Below are positions 41,176-49,873 of a stretch of DNA of 64,000 nucleotides, piece after piece. The translations under genes and the position numbers were made by a program. The notes under the pieces are model-generated. The model saw nothing but the letters and a program-made list of their open reading frames with translations. It was not told the DNA's origin and did not search any database. The stretch lies in the IMG/VR virus record IMGVR_UViG_3300042398_001385, positions 89,315 to 153,314 of that record; one strand, written 5' to 3'. Each line of letters starts with the position of its first letter. Within the stretch, counting starts at the first letter, position 1. The DNA is from a virus.

Positions 41176-41217
41176 AATCTTAAATTTTACATACTGGACA
41201 TTGTATTTATCTTTTTG

Positions 41218-41290
41218 TTTTCCCCCAAGGGTTCGAACCTCGATTCTGTGGACCAAAACCACATGTCCTGCCAATTAGACGAGAGGAAAA
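41218..41290 (-). tRNA. tRNA-Gln (TTG)
   Basis: A cloverleaf with anticodon loop TTTTGGT in a TGTGG/CCACA stem and T-loop TTCGAAC. It is the last gene of array 1. Acceptor TTTTCCT pairs with GGGAAAA. Confidence 0.93.
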
Positions 41291-41295
41291 TATGA

Positions 41296-41367
41296 GCTTT
41301 TGACGGGGATCGAACCTGCGACACCTTCATTACAAGTGAAGTGCTCTACCAACTGAGCTACAAAAGC
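41296..41367 (-). tRNA. tRNA-Thr (TGT)
   Basis: Anticodon loop CTTGTAA in a CTTCA/TGAAG stem, with standard D-arm and T-arm. Acceptor GCTTTTG pairs with CAAAAGC. Confidence 0.95.
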
Positions 41368-41371
41368 ATGG

Positions 41372-41445
41372 GGTGACAGAGGGGAATCGAACCCCCGACC
41401 TTCTGAACCACAATCAGACGCTCTAACCAACTGAGCTACCGTCAC
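41372..41445 (-). tRNA. tRNA-His (GTG)
   Basis: Anticodon loop TTGTGGT in a TCTGA/TCAGA stem. Acceptor GTGACGG pairs with CTGTCAC and position 73 is C, the normal histidine discriminator. Confidence 0.94.
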
Positions 41446-41447
41446 AG

Positions 41448-41520
41448 TAGCGAGTGGCAGGTTCGAACTGCCGACCTTTGGGGTATGATTCCAACGCTCT
41501 ACCAACTGAGCTAACTCGCC
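41448..41520 (-). tRNA. tRNA-Met/Ile2 (CAT)
   Basis: Anticodon loop ATCATAC. Sequence differs from the other CAT tRNAs in this window and looks like an elongator Met tRNA. Whether C34 is modified to lysidine cannot be read from DNA. Confidence 0.85.
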
Positions 41521-41527
41521 ATATAAG

Positions 41528-41600
41528 TGGAGTAGATGGGACTTGAACCCACATCCTCTTCCTTGCAAAGGAAGCGCTCAGCCAATTGAGCTACTACCCC
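41528..41600 (-). tRNA. tRNA-Ala (TGC)
   Basis: Anticodon loop TTTGCAA in a CTTCC/GGAAG stem, with normal D- and T-arms. Confidence 0.95.
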
Positions 41601-41604
41601 GTGG

Positions 41605-41677
41605 AGCGATAGACAGGATTCGAACCTGCGACCCCCGACTTGGAAGGACGGTGCTCTACCAACTGAGCTACTATCGC
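41605..41677 (-). tRNA. tRNA-Gly (TCC)
   Basis: Anticodon loop CTTCCAA. The sequence after discriminator base 73 reads CCA (41602-41604), so this gene may encode its own CCA end, unlike most of the others. Confidence 0.92.
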
Positions 41678-41681
41678 ATTT

Positions 41682-41732
41682 AGAGACGTGTGGAATTACG
41701 CATCCACTTCAACCGTCGGACTGTCCGTCTCT
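41682..41732 (-). ncRNA. Compact three-way-junction RNA between tRNAs
   Basis: A 51-base segment between tRNA-Gly and tRNA-Tyr. Its ends (AGAGACG / CGTCTCT) are complementary and enclose two hairpins, GTGGA...TCCAC and CGGA-CTG-TCCG. It is not a cloverleaf and has no open frame. Possibly a stable small RNA, like the non-tRNA RNAs in the T4 tRNA region, or a processing spacer. Confidence 0.5.
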
Positions 41733-41752
41733 ATATCTTACAGATACACTGT

Positions 41753-41836
41753 GTCGGAGCGGAGGGATTCGAACCCCCAATGCCGTAAGGCGGCTGATTT
41801 ACAGTCAGCTGAGCAGCCAATTGCTCAACACTCCGA
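41753..41836 (-). tRNA. tRNA-Tyr (GTA)
   Basis: A class II tRNA with a long variable arm (GCCTTACGGC). Anticodon loop CTGTAAA in a GCTGA/TCAGC stem. Confidence 0.93.
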
Positions 41837-41840
41837 ATTG

Positions 41841-41912
41841 CGGGGAAGGCTGGATTCGAACCAGCGACCTATCGATTAACAGTCGAGAGCTCTACCGCTG
41901 AGCTACATCCCC
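41841..41912 (-). tRNA. tRNA-Asn (GTT)
   Basis: Anticodon loop CTGTTAA with discriminator G, and a standard T-loop TTCGAAT. Confidence 0.94.
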
Positions 41913-41923
41913 AGTTTAGATTA

Positions 41924-41993
41924 GAGAATATTTGAGCGAGGTGTTTTTTGGTCAAATTTAAAAGTTCTGAGAAGTAACCCCATTCACCGCTTC
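41924..41993 (-). ncRNA. Element A: repeat shared with the Ro-upstream RNA
   Basis: A non-tRNA segment between tRNA-Asn and tRNA-Val. It contains the 23-base hairpin GAAGCGG(T)N6GGTTACTTC (41971-41993) followed by an A-rich stretch, ACACC and TTCTC. Three more copies lie at 54540-54925 upstream of the Ro60-like gene. The 23-base length and the flanking pattern are conserved. Confidence 0.6.
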
Positions 41994-42001
41994 TAATCTT
42001 G

Positions 42002-42074
42002 TAGTCCCTGAGGGATTCGAACCCCCGACATTTTGGATGTAAACCAAACGCTCTACCAACTGAGCTAAGAGACT
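42002..42074 (-). tRNA. tRNA-Val (TAC)
   Basis: Anticodon loop TTTACAT in a TTTGG/CCAAA stem. Acceptor AGTCTCT pairs with AGGGACT. Confidence 0.94.
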
Positions 42075-42082
42075 AAATGTGG

Positions 42083-42156
42083 TTGACATAGAAGGATTCG
42101 AACCTTCGGCCTTTGACGTATCAGATCAACGCTCTAACCAACTGAGCTATATGTCA
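42083..42156 (-). tRNA. tRNA-Ile (GAT)
   Basis: Anticodon loop CTGATAC in a TTGAT/GTCAA stem. It reads ATT and ATC. Acceptor TGACATA pairs with TATGTCA. Confidence 0.95.
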
Positions 42157-42162
42157 ATGTTG

Positions 42163-42248
42163 CGGAAAGAATTGGAATCGAACCAAATACCAATTAAGGT
42201 ACGCTTCGCTTAGCAGGCGAGCCCCGTCACCATCTGAGATTACTTTCC
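42163..42248 (-). tRNA. tRNA-Ser (GCT)
   Basis: A class II tRNA with a long variable arm. Anticodon loop CTGCTAA, reading AGC and AGT. Its first 9 bases overlap the end of a small open frame (42240-42377). Confidence 0.93.
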
Positions 42249-42377
42249 TTTTTTTAATATTCTCTTTATTCTTTTGAGAATTTTTTTACCAGTTGTGAAA
42301 TTAATCACATCAATTCTTAGGTTTTCCCTACTTGAAGCAAAGCTTCCACTAATTACTACTTTTTCTTTTTTATTCAT
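42240..42377 (-). CDS. Small basic protein inside tRNA array 1
   Basis: A 45-residue open frame (MNKKEKVVISGSFASSRENL, then a Lys/Arg-rich C-terminus) between tRNA-Cys and tRNA-Ser. The stop codon and the two codons before it lie inside the 5' end of tRNA-Ser, so translating ribosomes would cover the tRNA 5' end. It is the only coding-like sequence inside the arrays apart from the leaders. Basic composition suggests RNA binding, but no family was recognised and it may be a chance frame. Confidence 0.4.
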   Translation of the reverse strand: MNKKEKVVISGSFASSRENLRIDVINFTTGKKILKRIKRILKKGK

Positions 42378-42393
42378 AGGCACAATTTATTTG

Positions 42394-42464
42394 AGATCGC
42401 GACTGGAATTGAACCAGTATAGCCGGTTTTGCAGACCGTTTCCTAACCACTCGGACACGCGATC
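42394..42464 (-). tRNA. tRNA-Cys (GCA)
   Basis: Anticodon loop CTGCAAA with discriminator T, the normal cysteine identity base. Acceptor GATCGCG pairs with CGCGATC. Confidence 0.94.
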
Positions 42465-42474
42465 TTGTTTTTTA

Positions 42475-42549
42475 GAGGTTCCACCTGGATTCGAACCAGG
42501 ATCAGATCATCCGTAGTGATCCATTCTAATCCGTTGAACTATAGAACCT
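42475..42549 (-). tRNA. tRNA-Arg (ACG)
   Basis: Anticodon loop CTACGGA in a GATCA/TGATC stem. It reads CGN after A34 editing, which needs a host deaminase. Confidence 0.93.
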
Positions 42550-42554
42550 TTTTG

Positions 42555-42627
42555 CACGCCCTGTAGGAATCGAACCTACAACCTTTGGTTTTGGAGACCA
42601 ACGCTCTACCAATTGAGCTAAAGACGC
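42555..42627 (-). tRNA. tRNA-Trp (CCA)
   Basis: Anticodon loop CTCCAAA in a TTGGT/ACCAA stem, with discriminator G. Confidence 0.94.
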
Positions 42628-42768
42628 ATTTAAGGAAAGATGAAGATGGTTGCGTGGACATCATCTTTTACGATTGGCTTTACTTAGGTGTATATCTCCC
42701 AACTCCGATGATCCCAGCCGATATACACTCTCATGCTATTGGAATCATCCTTCCCCAATCAACCTTTG
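42628..42768 (-). ncRNA. Structured spacer RNA (about 140 nt) in array 1
   Basis: A segment between tRNA-Lys and tRNA-Trp with several nested complementarities: GGTTG/CAACC, GATTGG/CCAATC, a hairpin GGATGATTCC and a 9-bp stem GTGTATATC/GATATACAC. No open frame of note. It is probably a structured RNA co-transcribed with the tRNAs. Not assigned to a family. Confidence 0.45.
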
Positions 42769-42842
42769 TGATCCCGCCGGGACTCGAACCCGGGACTCCC
42801 TCATTAAAAGTGAGGTGCTCTAGCCAACTGAGCTACGAGATC
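42769..42842 (-). tRNA. tRNA-Lys (TTT)
   Basis: Anticodon loop CTTTTAA in a CCTCA/TGAGG stem. Acceptor GATCTCG pairs with CGGGATC. Confidence 0.95.
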
Positions 42843-42912
42843 ATTTTACTAAACCTATTTTTGTCTCACTAAACAAATGATGTTTAGTAATACAATTTCT
42901 TGTTTAGTATTG

Positions 42913-42985
42913 TGGTACCGGCCGGAATCGAACCGGCGACACCTAGATTTTCAGTCTAGTGCTCTACCGACTGAGCTACGGTACC
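42913..42985 (-). tRNA. tRNA-Phe (GAA)
   Basis: Anticodon loop CTGAAAA in a CTAGA/TCTAG stem. First gene of array 1, transcribed just after the leader terminator. Confidence 0.95.
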
Positions 42986-43018
42986 TTGGTTTTCCAGTAT
43001 GTCAAAGAACAAATAAAA

Positions 43019-43042
43019 AAGGCTTCGAATAATCGAAGCCTT
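43019..43042 (-). terminator. Attenuator terminator of tRNA array 1
   Basis: A perfect 10-bp stem (AAGGCTTCGA / TCGAAGCCTT) with a 4-base loop, then TTTTTT on the minus strand. It lies between the leader mini-ORF and tRNA-Phe. Its 5' arm can instead pair with GATCGAAGCT at the end of leader 1 (43075-43084 region), which would prevent the terminator from forming. Confidence 0.85.
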
Positions 43043-43072
43043 TTCCAAAATATCTAAATATGATTTTCTGTA

Positions 43073-43180
43073 TTAGCTTCGATCGGGTTCTTTCCCCTTA
43101 GCCCAAAACGCCACCGTTTGATAGCAGCCATTAATCTGACTGTTCATGCGAATGATGTTATGTTTACTACAGTTTTTCAT
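43073..43180 (-). CDS. Leader peptide 1, codon-matched to tRNA array 1
   Basis: A 35-codon mini-ORF (MKNCSKHNIIRMNSQINGCY, then QTVAFWAKGKEPDRS) between the array 1 promoter and its terminator. Its first 30 codons use only amino acids served by array 1: Lys, Asn, Cys, Ser (AGT), His, Ile (ATC/ATT), Arg (CGC), Met, Gln, Gly, Tyr, Thr, Val, Ala, Phe and Trp. All 16 array species are present and Leu is absent. Only Glu, Pro and Asp fall outside the set, in the last five codons, where GAT CGA AGC TAA also forms the antiterminator arm. This fits a ribosome-sensing attenuator leader. Confidence 0.75.
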   Translation of the reverse strand: MKNCSKHNIIRMNSQINGCYQTVAFWAKGKEPDRS

Positions 43181-43189
43181 TGTTTTCTT

Positions 43190-43221
43190 TATTATATATC
43201 TCTATTCCGATATTGTTTCAC
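43190..43221 (-). promoter_or_regulatory. Promoter of tRNA array 1
   Basis: GTGAAAC (43215-43221) and TATATAATA (43190-43198) separated by 16 bases, on the minus strand, about 10 bases upstream of the leader ATG. The same spacing and boxes occur before array 3, and close variants occur before array 2 and the Ro-upstream RNA. Confidence 0.65.
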
Positions 43222-43268
43222 AAAATTAGAATAATTATTCCAGATAAAAAAATGATTTTTGATATTTT

Positions 43269-43715: not shown

Positions 43716-44234
43716 TTAAATTAAAAATTTAATAATTTTATCCTTAATTCCTGACTGTTTTATCCCCTCATTATAAGGTTTGGTAGTCATTACAAAGTTT
43801 TCTAGTTTAGAAAGATTCATATCATCTACTGCCACCCAATGTGTTACCTCTGGATGGTTTTTAAGCCATTCTTTAATCTCTGTAAAACGAATAGCTTCGT
43901 AAAGATTTTTCCATTTGAAAAGTCCAAAACCATTCTCGTCGAAATCTTTCATATTAGGTGTAAGATCAATTGGGGGTTTAATTCCACGGGTAACATACAT
44001 CTTTTTCATTTGTTCAAGATTACCCCAGTTTTTCCAATCGGAAGAAATAACAATCTCGCATCCTGTTTCTTCGATAATTTGATTTAGAACTTTAACAGCT
44101 TTAGAATCAAAGCTATCCATTCGAATATCCAAAGGGGTTTCTGGGTTACTATCGTATCCCTTCTTTTTGAATCGTCCTCCCCATTGTGAGGAAAGACAGA
44201 TTACTCCATCATGATCTAAAAATAAAACTTTCAT
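43716..44234 (-). CDS. HAD-fold phosphatase, RNA-repair type candidate
   Basis: A 172-residue HAD superfamily protein starting at MKVLFLDHDGV (ATG 44234). A start 12 bases upstream would lie inside the tRNA gene. Motif I is LDHDGV (nucleophile and general acid Asp, residues 6 and 8), motif II is VISSDWK (about 66-72) and motif IV is WVAVDDMN (about 142-149). The short form with FLD-x-DGV and SSDW resembles the HAD domain found in Swiss-army-knife RNA repair proteins, which would remove phosphates at RNA ends. Position directly behind tRNA array 2 supports a tRNA-related role; inferred. Confidence 0.7.
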   Translation of the reverse strand: MKVLFLDHDGVICLSSQWGGRFKKKGYDSNPETPLDIRMDSFDSKAVKVLNQIIEETGCEIVISSDWKNWGNLEQMKKMYVTRGIKPPIDLTPNMKDFDENGFGLFKWKNLYEAIRFTEIKEWLKNHPEVTHWVAVDDMNLSKLENFVMTTKPYNEGIKQSGIKDKIIKFLI

Positions 44235-44235
44235 G

Positions 44236-44309
44236 TGGTCCCTCACGGGCTCGAACCGTGGACCTACTGATTATGAGTCAGTTGCTCTAACCTGCTGAGC
44301 TAAGGGACC
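44236..44309 (-). tRNA. tRNA (CAT), Met or Ile2, copy in array 2
   Basis: Anticodon loop CTCATAA in an ACTGA/TCAGT stem. Differs by a single base from the copy at 49153-49226. The GACTCATAATC context resembles lysidine-type Ile2 tRNAs as well as Met tRNAs, so the amino acid is uncertain. Confidence 0.88.
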
Positions 44310-44315
44310 TTTTTG

Positions 44316-44395
44316 TACCTTCGGAGAGACTCGAACTCTCACGCTTTCGCACTAGATCCTAAGTCTAGCGTGTCTACCAATTCCACCACGAAGGC
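44316..44395 (-). tRNA. tRNA-Leu (TAG)
   Basis: A class II tRNA. Anticodon loop CTTAGGA in a CTAGA/TCTAG stem, reading CTN codons. Confidence 0.94.
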
Positions 44396-44401
44396 ATTTA
44401 G

Positions 44402-44474
<73 letters not shown>

Positions 44475-44480
44475 ATATTG

Positions 44481-44554
44481 CGGTCCTAGCGGGACTCGAA
44501 CCCGCGATCTCCGCCGTGACAGGGCGGCGTCCACTCCAACTGGACTGTAGGACC
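44481..44554 (-). tRNA. tRNA-Asp (GTC)
   Basis: Anticodon loop CTGTCAC in a CCGCC/GGCGG stem, with discriminator G. Confidence 0.95.
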
Positions 44555-44640
44555 AATTTGTTACTTATTCTCCTACCCTTTTATTTCGTAACCAACCTGC
44601 TTATCTTTAAATACGAGTTTCTCAAGGGTACAGGTTGTAG
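44555..44640 (-). ncRNA. Structured spacer with H-type pseudoknot potential
   Basis: Between tRNA-Glu and tRNA-Asp. On the minus strand AACCTG and TACCCTT are followed in the same order by CAGGTT and AAGGGTA, so the two stems interlock as a pseudoknot. A GTTAC/GTAAC pair adds a third stem. No open frame. Confidence 0.4.
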
Positions 44641-44712
44641 TAGTCGGTACGGGATTCGAACCCGTGTGACAAGGATGAAAACCTTGTATCCTGACCCCTA
44701 GATGAACCGACC
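44641..44712 (-). tRNA. tRNA-Glu (TTC)
   Basis: Anticodon loop TTTTCAT in a CAAGG/CCTTG stem. Acceptor GGTCGGT pairs with ACCGACT. First tRNA of array 2. Confidence 0.94.
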
Positions 44713-44720
44713 ATAAAAAA

Positions 44721-44803
44721 GGAATAAGGCAGGACCTACGCTCTGTCTTGCATTCCATCTCAAGAGCTGCCTAATACCAGTGGGTTAGTGGTTACCTTAT
44801 TCC
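44721..44803 (-). ncRNA. Three-way-junction RNA at the start of array 2
   Basis: An 83-base segment closed by a perfect 9-bp stem (GGAATAAGG / CCTTATTCC), with internal hairpins ACCA...TGGT and GCTCTTG...CAAGACAGAGC, and TTTTTT directly after it on the minus strand. It is not a cloverleaf. It lies between the array 2 attenuator and tRNA-Glu. Confidence 0.5.
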
Positions 44804-44838
44804 TAATTTCAATATTTCAAAGAGCGTATAAAACAAAA

Positions 44839-44863
44839 AAACCTCTGAGGTTATCAGAGGTTT
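44839..44863 (-). terminator. Attenuator terminator of tRNA array 2
   Basis: A perfect 10-bp stem (AAACCTCTGA / TCAGAGGTTT) with a 5-base loop, then a run of T on the minus strand. The 5' arm CCTCTGA can pair with TCAGAGG at 44891-44897 in the leader, and an inner TTAAATTA/TAATTTAA stem stacks under it. Confidence 0.88.
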
Positions 44864-44884: not shown

Positions 44885-44974
44885 TTAATTCCTCTGACAC
44901 TTAAATCTATCCTCTAGAAGTGAATCTTCTTTACGAAGAGTAAAATCTGTTGCGATATTTAAAAAGTGTTTCAT
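44885..44974 (-). CDS. Leader peptide 2, codon-matched to tRNA array 2
   Basis: A 29-codon mini-ORF (MKHFLNIATDFTLRKEDSLL, then EDRFKCQRN). Array 2 encodes Leu(TAG), Asp, Glu, fMet and a CAT tRNA. The leader has four Leu (three as CTN), three Asp and two Glu, with seven of codons 13-22 being Leu, Asp or Glu. The last codons TGT CAG AGG AAT TAA contain the arm that pairs with the terminator. Same layout as leaders 1 and 3, though its codon bias is weaker than theirs. Confidence 0.65.
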   Translation of the reverse strand: MKHFLNIATDFTLRKEDSLLEDRFKCQRN

Positions 44975-49054: not shown

Positions 49055-49059
49055 ATTTG

Positions 49060-49143
49060 TACCCGGAGAGGGACTTGAACCCTCACGACCAAATGGCCAA
49101 CAGATTTTAAGTCTGTCTTGTCTACCTATTCCAACATCCGGGC
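49060..49143 (-). tRNA. tRNA-Leu (TAA)
   Basis: A class II tRNA with a long variable arm. Anticodon loop CTTAAAA, reading TTA/TTG. Acceptor GCCCGGA pairs with TCCGGGT. Confidence 0.94.
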
Positions 49144-49152
49144 AGACTTTTG

Positions 49153-49226
49153 TGGTCCCTCACGGGCTCGAACCGTGGACCTACTGATTATGAGTCAGTT
49201 GCTCTAACCTACTGAGCTAAGGGACC
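49153..49226 (-). tRNA. tRNA (CAT), Met or Ile2, copy in array 3
   Basis: Identical to the copy at 44236-44309 except for one D-loop base. Anticodon loop CTCATAA. Confidence 0.88.
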
Positions 49227-49230
49227 TAAG

Positions 49231-49304
49231 TAGAGACGACGAGAGTCGAACTCGTGACCGCATGCGTATAAGGCATGTGCTCTAACCAATTGAGCTACGC
49301 CTCT
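49231..49304 (-). tRNA. tRNA-Ile (TAT)
   Basis: Anticodon loop CTTATAC in a CATGC/GCATG stem. It reads ATA, the rare isoleucine codon, by a T34 rather than the usual bacterial lysidine route. Confidence 0.93.
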
Positions 49305-49311
49305 ATGGCTG

Positions 49312-49384
49312 TCGGGATACCAGGACTCGAACCTGGGGCCTCCTGGTCCCAAACCAGGCGATCTACCAACTGATCTACATCCCG
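49312..49384 (-). tRNA. tRNA-Pro (TGG)
   Basis: Anticodon loop TTTGGGA in a CCTGG/CCAGG stem. Acceptor starts with C1-G72, as is usual for proline. Confidence 0.95.
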
Positions 49385-49551
49385 AAATTGTATGTCTTTA
49401 AGTATCACCAGAACATACAAACTGTGCCAACCAACGATTTGGAGAATAAGTGTGCATAACATTAAAGAATACCAAGGTATCCTACCTGTCTACGGTGTAG
49501 AGGCCTATTCCATCTTCGATCCATGCCCAGCGCTAGGCAGAGGGATTTGTG
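49385..49551 (-). ncRNA. Structured spacer RNA (about 165 nt) in array 3
   Basis: Between tRNA-Arg and tRNA-Pro. Contains a perfect 8-bp hairpin TTGTATGT/ACATACAA (49388-49420), a hairpin around GCCTAGCGCTGGGC, and a self-complementary ATACCTTGGTAT. No convincing open frame. Probably a structured RNA co-transcribed with the tRNAs. Confidence 0.4.
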
Positions 49552-49625
49552 TGATCCGAGCAGGATTCGAACCTGCGACCTACTGCTTAGAAGGCAGTTG
49601 CTCTATCCAGCTGAGCTATCGGACC
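49552..49625 (-). tRNA. tRNA-Arg (TCT)
   Basis: Anticodon loop CTTCTAA in an ACTGC/GCAGT stem, reading AGA/AGG, which are preferred Arg codons in this AT-rich genome. Confidence 0.95.
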
Positions 49626-49631
49626 AAATGG

Positions 49632-49717
49632 CGGAGAGGGCGAGATTCGAACTCGCGGTAGCTTTCACTACGTCGGTTTTCAAGACCGGTGCATTAAACC
49701 AACTCTGCCACCTCTCC
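49632..49717 (-). tRNA. tRNA-Ser (TGA)
   Basis: A class II tRNA with a long variable arm (GTAGTGAAAGCTAC). Anticodon loop CTTGAAA, reading TCN. Discriminator G. First gene of array 3. Confidence 0.94.
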
Positions 49718-49798: not shown

Positions 49799-49873
49799 CT
49801 AACACAGGACCTTTAGAGATCGTCTTATCGACGGTCTTAATATTATAGGTAATATGTTAAGTGTTTTGTTCAT
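49799..49873 (-). CDS. Leader peptide 3, codon-matched to tRNA array 3
   Basis: A 24-codon mini-ORF (MNKTLNILPIILRPSIRRSL, then KVLC). Codons 7-20 consist only of Ile (four, all ATA), Leu, Pro, Arg (AGA, AGA, CGA) and Ser (TCG, TCT). Array 3 encodes exactly Ile(TAT), Leu(TAA), Pro(TGG), Arg(TCT) and Ser(TGA), plus a CAT tRNA. The last codons CTA AAG GTC CTG TGT TAG carry the antiterminator arm. Strong candidate for a ribosome-sensing attenuator leader. Confidence 0.75.
   Translation of the reverse strand: MNKTLNILPIILRPSIRRSLKVLC

Follow-up and report, generated by a model that had tools for sequence, protein, structure and literature searches.

Each of the three tRNA arrays in the window (the whole 64,000-nucleotide stretch of DNA analysed here, part of a 153,314-base IMG/VR virus record) is very probably under ribosome-mediated transcription attenuation and, judged from sequence, would sense shortage of its own charged products. 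The parts of the system, their order, the match between leader codons and array, the position of the matched codons, the complementarity and the conservation are all seen in the DNA. The module order was common to all three arrays: a TATATAAT-like box, a mini-ORF, an ORF tail whose sequence complements the terminator's 5' arm, an intrinsic terminator between mini-ORF and tRNA genes, and the tRNAs themselves.

43188-43242 (-), putative promoter-like box (TATATAAT) and A+T-rich region upstream of leader 1, by sequence
43073-43180 (-), leader 1 mini-ORF, 35 codons, translation MKNCSKHNIIRMNSQINGCYQTVAFWAKGKEPDRS and stop; frame kept in relatives
43075-43084 (-), leader 1 antiterminator strand GATCGAAGCT, complementary to the terminator 5' arm 43040-43031
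43019-43042 (-), leader 1 intrinsic terminator, AAGGCTTCGATTATTCGAAGCCTT plus T run
42992-43013 (-), boxA-like TTGTTCTTTGACATACTGGAAA directly past the leader 1 terminator, with a presumed role
41217-42985 (-), tRNA array 1: Phe Lys Trp Arg-acg Cys Ser-gct Ile-gat Val Asn Tyr Gly Ala Met His Thr Gln
44885-44974 (-), leader 2 mini-ORF MKHFLNIATDFTLRKEDSLLEDRFKCQRN
44839-44863 (-), leader 2 terminator; 5' arm 44860-44852 pairs with ORF tail 44899-44891
44235-44712 (-), tRNA array 2 (ARAGORN): Glu Asp Met Leu-tag Met
49799-49873 (-), leader 3 mini-ORF MNKTLNILPIILRPSIRRSLKVLC, with ATA/TTA/AGA/CCN/TCN codons
49747-49774 (-), leader 3 terminator; 5' arm 49770-49760 pairs with ORF tail 49815-49805
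49059-49717 (-), tRNA array 3 (ARAGORN): Ser-tga Arg-tct Pro Ile-tat Met Leu-taa

ARAGORN called 15 tRNAs in array 1; the 16th, Ser-gct at 42162-42248 (-), was recovered at a relaxed threshold and was also seen as a sub-threshold tRNA-Sec-like hit. Several stretches inside the arrays received no tRNA or Rfam call (41678-41752, 41913-42000, 42628-42767, 44555-44639, 44713-44810 and 49385-49550); some of their ends were stem-like, and they may be decayed tRNAs or structured RNAs of another kind. Across the arrays, matches resembling Y RNA (YrlA) stayed below threshold. The boxA-like sequence TCTTTGAMATA lay directly past each of the three window terminators, and of 80 matches to the 20-mer of the leader 1 boxA at least 31, mostly from Bacteroidota genomes, were likewise located ahead of 23S rRNA. 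Between arrays 1 and 2 (43716-44246) the phage encodes a HAD_SAK_2 protein (Pfam E 1.3e-23), HAD_SAK_2 being the HAD domain of Swiss Army Knife RNA repair proteins, and a TROVE (Ro-like) RNA-binding protein is encoded at 52835-54466.

In the general scheme of ribosome-mediated attenuation, as set out in PMC1183508, a leader ORF precedes alternative antiterminator and terminator structures, and stalling results in readthrough. For the phage modules we infer the corresponding steps of translation, stalling, termination and readthrough. The mini-ORF would be translated by a ribosome trailing RNA polymerase. With all listed tRNAs available, the ribosome would get to the ORF end and cover or disrupt the tail, the terminator would form and no tRNAs would be made. 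With any one listed charged tRNA scarce, the ribosome would stall 4-15 codons upstream of the tail, leaving the tail free to pair with the terminator 5' arm as an antiterminator; transcription would then run on to make every tRNA of the array, in the window's clade after passing a boxA-like element. As a stall on any listed codon would switch the array on, the leader would act as an OR gate for the tRNAs of its array, and its switching would constitute negative feedback on their supply. The trigger may be a loss of host tRNAs, either through cleavage by an anticodon-nuclease defence or through the decay of the infected cell.

Codons were assigned to 24 classes, with Ser, Leu and Arg divided by box and Ile divided into ATA and ATY. 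In this scheme all of the first 30 codons of leader 1 (30/30) fell into the 16 classes of array 1, and each class was used, confirming what a sequence-only reading of this DNA had claimed; Ile was encoded by ATC/ATT, Arg by CGC and Ser by AGT, the boxes decoded by array 1. The same reading had held such a match to be hard to get by chance, and this stood: 60% of codons in the window's own genes fall into array 1's classes, and the best 30-codon stretch among 14,299 sliding windows (47 genes of this phage, within the window) reached 28/30, the longest uninterrupted run of matches being 19 codons. The 30-codon cut was chosen post hoc, so that the weight is carried by independent replication in other leaders. 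Pairing with the terminator arm had also been proposed to shape the last five codons. This was correct for codons 33-35 (GAT CGA AGC), the only codons taken in by the antiterminator (43084-43075), but not for Glu-31 and Pro-32, the last two codons upstream of that strand, which lie outside it in a two-codon strip where matches fall to background in every leader and are thus not accounted for by base pairing; the ribosome footprint probably accounts for them. Leader 3 was rich in ATA, TTA, AGA, CCN and TCN, the boxes decoded by array 3, and 13/24 of its codons fitted its own 6-class array, compared with 9/24 and 4/24 for the other two arrays. The match of leader 2 was weaker (9/29 codons for its own 4-class array), with enrichment for Asp, Glu and CTN-Leu.

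Terminase relatives of the phage gave 79 loci, and tRNAs were present in 25/44 related records searched, whilst more distant huge uncultured phage records (462-642 kb) carried 28-61 tRNAs each. A finder blind to codons required a TATA box (<=55 nt), an ATG ORF of 13-45 codons, a terminator, a tRNA (<=450 nt) and complementarity, subject to cut-offs, between the ORF tail and the terminator 5' arm. This yielded 61 leaders in 27 clusters, extending to phages of 373-642 kb, with the required TATA box 8-43 nt ahead of the ATG. The arrays of relatives were preceded by the same module but quite different peptides, including:

MTTSFQQQQQQQINRTD (QQQQQQQ), upstream of four tRNA-Gln genes
MKAMILSLCLSLSLSLQKLGVV... 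(LSLCLSLSLSL), upstream of Leu Leu Ser Cys Ser
MKTIAMIIRMRIIRPKMLG, upstream of Arg-tct Ile-gat Met
MKTVNTNIAIVEIAVIGGAEEGVMG..., upstream of Glu Ala Ile-tat Val Gly Glu
MKAISVHIIHIWEHLLEEVNINIM, upstream of His Glu Val Trp
MNKSFYILPLHTTSSSSSRRPITH..., upstream of Ser Thr Arg His Pro Met Leu
MKTQFTYNCNQMPEQGNKGDYMDTDLG, upstream of Cys Asn Glu Lys Tyr Gln

In the large phages L140, L150, L152 and L091, long arrays contained several tandem leader-terminator modules, and each tandem leader resembled the tRNAs downstream of it. Three modules, MRALHTYKITIDLG (L139:4085), MKTLHTYKNVIDWM (L144:6658) and MKTMTINNRNRLTDII (L141:4375), had no tRNA detected close behind and perhaps precede tRNAs that escaped detection, or genes of another kind under their control. 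An x-Asn-Ile motif at codons 5-8 (for example MKHFLNIA, MKTVNTNIA and MKNLNNI) was common to many leaders whatever the array (window, L117, L139-L152). Clusters L136 (MINLVN...) and L145 (MSGKG...) looked like finder false positives; both were kept in the shuffles described below and excluded from the positional profile. A tRNA search of Tenacibaculum phage PTm1 and Flavobacterium phage MaF61 gave no tRNAs and phage PAU carried one small tRNA array without a terminator leader, so these searches turned up no cultured relative that has the module. XacN1, an unrelated phage with many tRNAs that served as negative control, had no such modules; the stretch of KVP40 examined contained no tRNAs and was therefore of no use as a control.

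Across the 61 leaders (27 clusters), with start and antiterminator codons excluded, the own array decoded 293/575 leader codons, against the 115 predicted by codon usage in these phages. None of 100,000 leader-array shuffles reached the observed excess (178, shuffle maximum 73), and the same was true with the window's clade excluded (0/100,000; 144.7 vs 72.5). Among all arrays, the own array ranked first or second for 25/27 leaders. Chance as the cause of the codon/array match was rejected by these shuffles and the random-window comparison, and shared codon bias by the shuffles with phage codon usage as background. Where arrays covered only one of the two boxes of Ile, Leu, Arg or Ser, leader codons belonged to the own box 75 times and to the other box 19 times. 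ATA occurred with Ile-tat and ATY with Ile-gat (Fisher test, P = 9e-5), and CTN with Leu-tag and TTR with Leu-taa (P = 0.01); box choice tested separately for Arg and Ser was not significant. This choice among isoacceptors bears on whether the same attenuator might respond to amino-acid starvation, and so to uncharged tRNA, instead of loss of the tRNA molecule. The classical leaders (trp, his, thr and ilv) sense charging (in part PMC1183508), and a missing and an uncharged tRNA would be indistinguishable to a leader. However, amino-acid lack is not cured by an output that is tRNA, and codons that track the isoacceptors of one amino acid fit tRNA species better than amino acids, leaving starvation an unlikely signal.

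The reading we prefer, shortage of charged tRNA sensed at an intrinsic terminator, was also considered at the level of RNA structure. In predicted folds of the three window leaders, the nascent RNA formed the antiterminator and, with a ribosome on the stop codon, the remaining free RNA formed the terminator. In the relatives of leader 2, terminators with CCTCTG/CAGAGG or CCTCGG/CCGAGG arms were accompanied by ORF tails with CAGAGG or CCGAG, respectively; the tail varies along with the terminator arms, so that three strands changed together. In the leader 3 tail the reading frame varied and the antiterminator sequence was kept. The leader 1 complement comprised 10 unbroken pairs with wobbles at the ends only, a duplex that did not outscore its shuffled tails (z -0.4). 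The antiterminator strand of several huge phages begins 25-41 nt ahead of the stop codon, too far upstream to be covered by a ribosome that has reached the stop, and timing must therefore differ there. Such modules, with the antiterminator far upstream of the stop, lend something to a scheme of opposite polarity or acting at another step, in which stalling of the ribosome hides or uncovers a processing or Rho site. We regard this as very unlikely, since a hairpin and T run, themselves a finder requirement, stand behind every accepted leader and the ORF tail pairs with the terminator 5' arm more strongly than shuffled tails do (mean z -3.0; 18/25 clusters below -2).

The position of the matched codons provided a further line of evidence for attenuation by a stalled ribosome. 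With the leaders aligned at the base where the antiterminator strand begins, matches were enriched 2.3-4.4-fold at codons -15 to -4 and 1.9-fold at -3 (3.2-3.9-fold in bins from -15 to -3), and were at background (0.75-0.82-fold) from -2 onward; matches at -5..-3 and -2..-1 numbered 49/75 and 7/49, respectively (P = 1e-8). Leader codons 2-5 were likewise at background level. This profile is what one expects if the antiterminator strand has to stay clear of a ribosome stalled on a sensing codon, and it puts the sensing codons at a distance from that strand that is compatible with stalling. That the leader is a constitutive timer or decoy, matched through shared codon bias or co-inheritance with its array, is barely credible: leaders are conserved together with their arrays within a clade, but the expectation was already built on the phages' own codon usage, leader-array shuffling abolished the signal in clades with unrelated leaders, and bias leaves the sharp positional boundary unexplained.

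Substitutions amongst relatives were also compared with the array's set. Codons 7-17 of leader 3 swapped among ATA, TTA and TCN, and all of its class-changing substitutions remained within the set (7/7, 1.7 expected). The corresponding counts were 4/9 for leader 2 (1.6 expected) and 2/2 for leader 1 (1.6 expected), the latter from two changes only. The L122 array had no detected tRNA-Pro or tRNA-Ser, and its leader has lost the Pro codons and retains three Ser codons. Conservation of the leader 1 reading frame was not poor, the frame being kept in the related loci examined. The earlier proposal of a translated leader tuned to its array is thus backed by leaders 2 and 3, the differing arrays of relatives, isoacceptor choice, frame conservation over the sensing codons and the position of matched codons relative to the antiterminator.

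Amino-acid operon attenuators have leaders rich in regulatory codons (trpL, hisL, thrL and ilvGMEDA), and the phage modules resemble them in having such a leader ORF, alternative antiterminator and terminator pairings and a proposed logic in which stalling means readthrough. They differ in being located on phages, in controlling tRNAs and not biosynthetic enzymes, in listing up to 16 tRNA species in one leader, in matching at the level of codon box and isoacceptor, and in appearing two-segment, without an obvious protector hairpin. In pheST attenuation, the leader peptide pheM likewise controls a component of tRNA charging, but this is a synthetase and one amino acid is sensed. T-box riboswitches sense tRNA status at a terminator and, unlike the phage leaders, bind uncharged tRNA directly without translation. 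An Rfam scan of the window gave only tRNA matches at gathering level, with no T-box match reported; Thr_leader (29.7 bits vs gathering threshold 55) and Phe_leader (26.9 vs 55) showed sub-threshold resemblance only, and membership of a known Rfam leader family was rejected. Anticodon nucleases are phage defences countered by phage tRNAs (PMC10264068, PMC11555353), which share with the present arrays the presumed purpose of replacing depleted host tRNAs. The text of these two papers contains no attenuation or leader terms and does not describe sensor control of phage tRNA supply, and attenuat-, leader and terminator are all absent from the main text of the huge-phage paper PMC7162821. Keyword literature searches, covering few subscription journals and preprints, returned no report of leader-controlled phage tRNA arrays, which provisionally appear new.

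What phages gain from carrying tRNAs has long been debated, with codon compensation and the countering of tRNA-cutting defence as the competing answers. A leader that names its array's tRNAs provides a sequence-readable, testable tie between tRNA supply and sensing; it would extend attenuation from amino-acid operons to tRNA genes and make these leaders ready-made multi-input sensors of tRNA depletion. On balance, we favour the broader conclusion that self-sensing tRNA operons form a modular family in large relatives of Bacteroidota phages, in which each leader is a list of its own array's tRNAs and the phage detects tRNA loss, caused for example by anticodon-nuclease immunity, and answers with the matching set. 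If true, one could read from the leaders which tRNAs phages expect to lose together.
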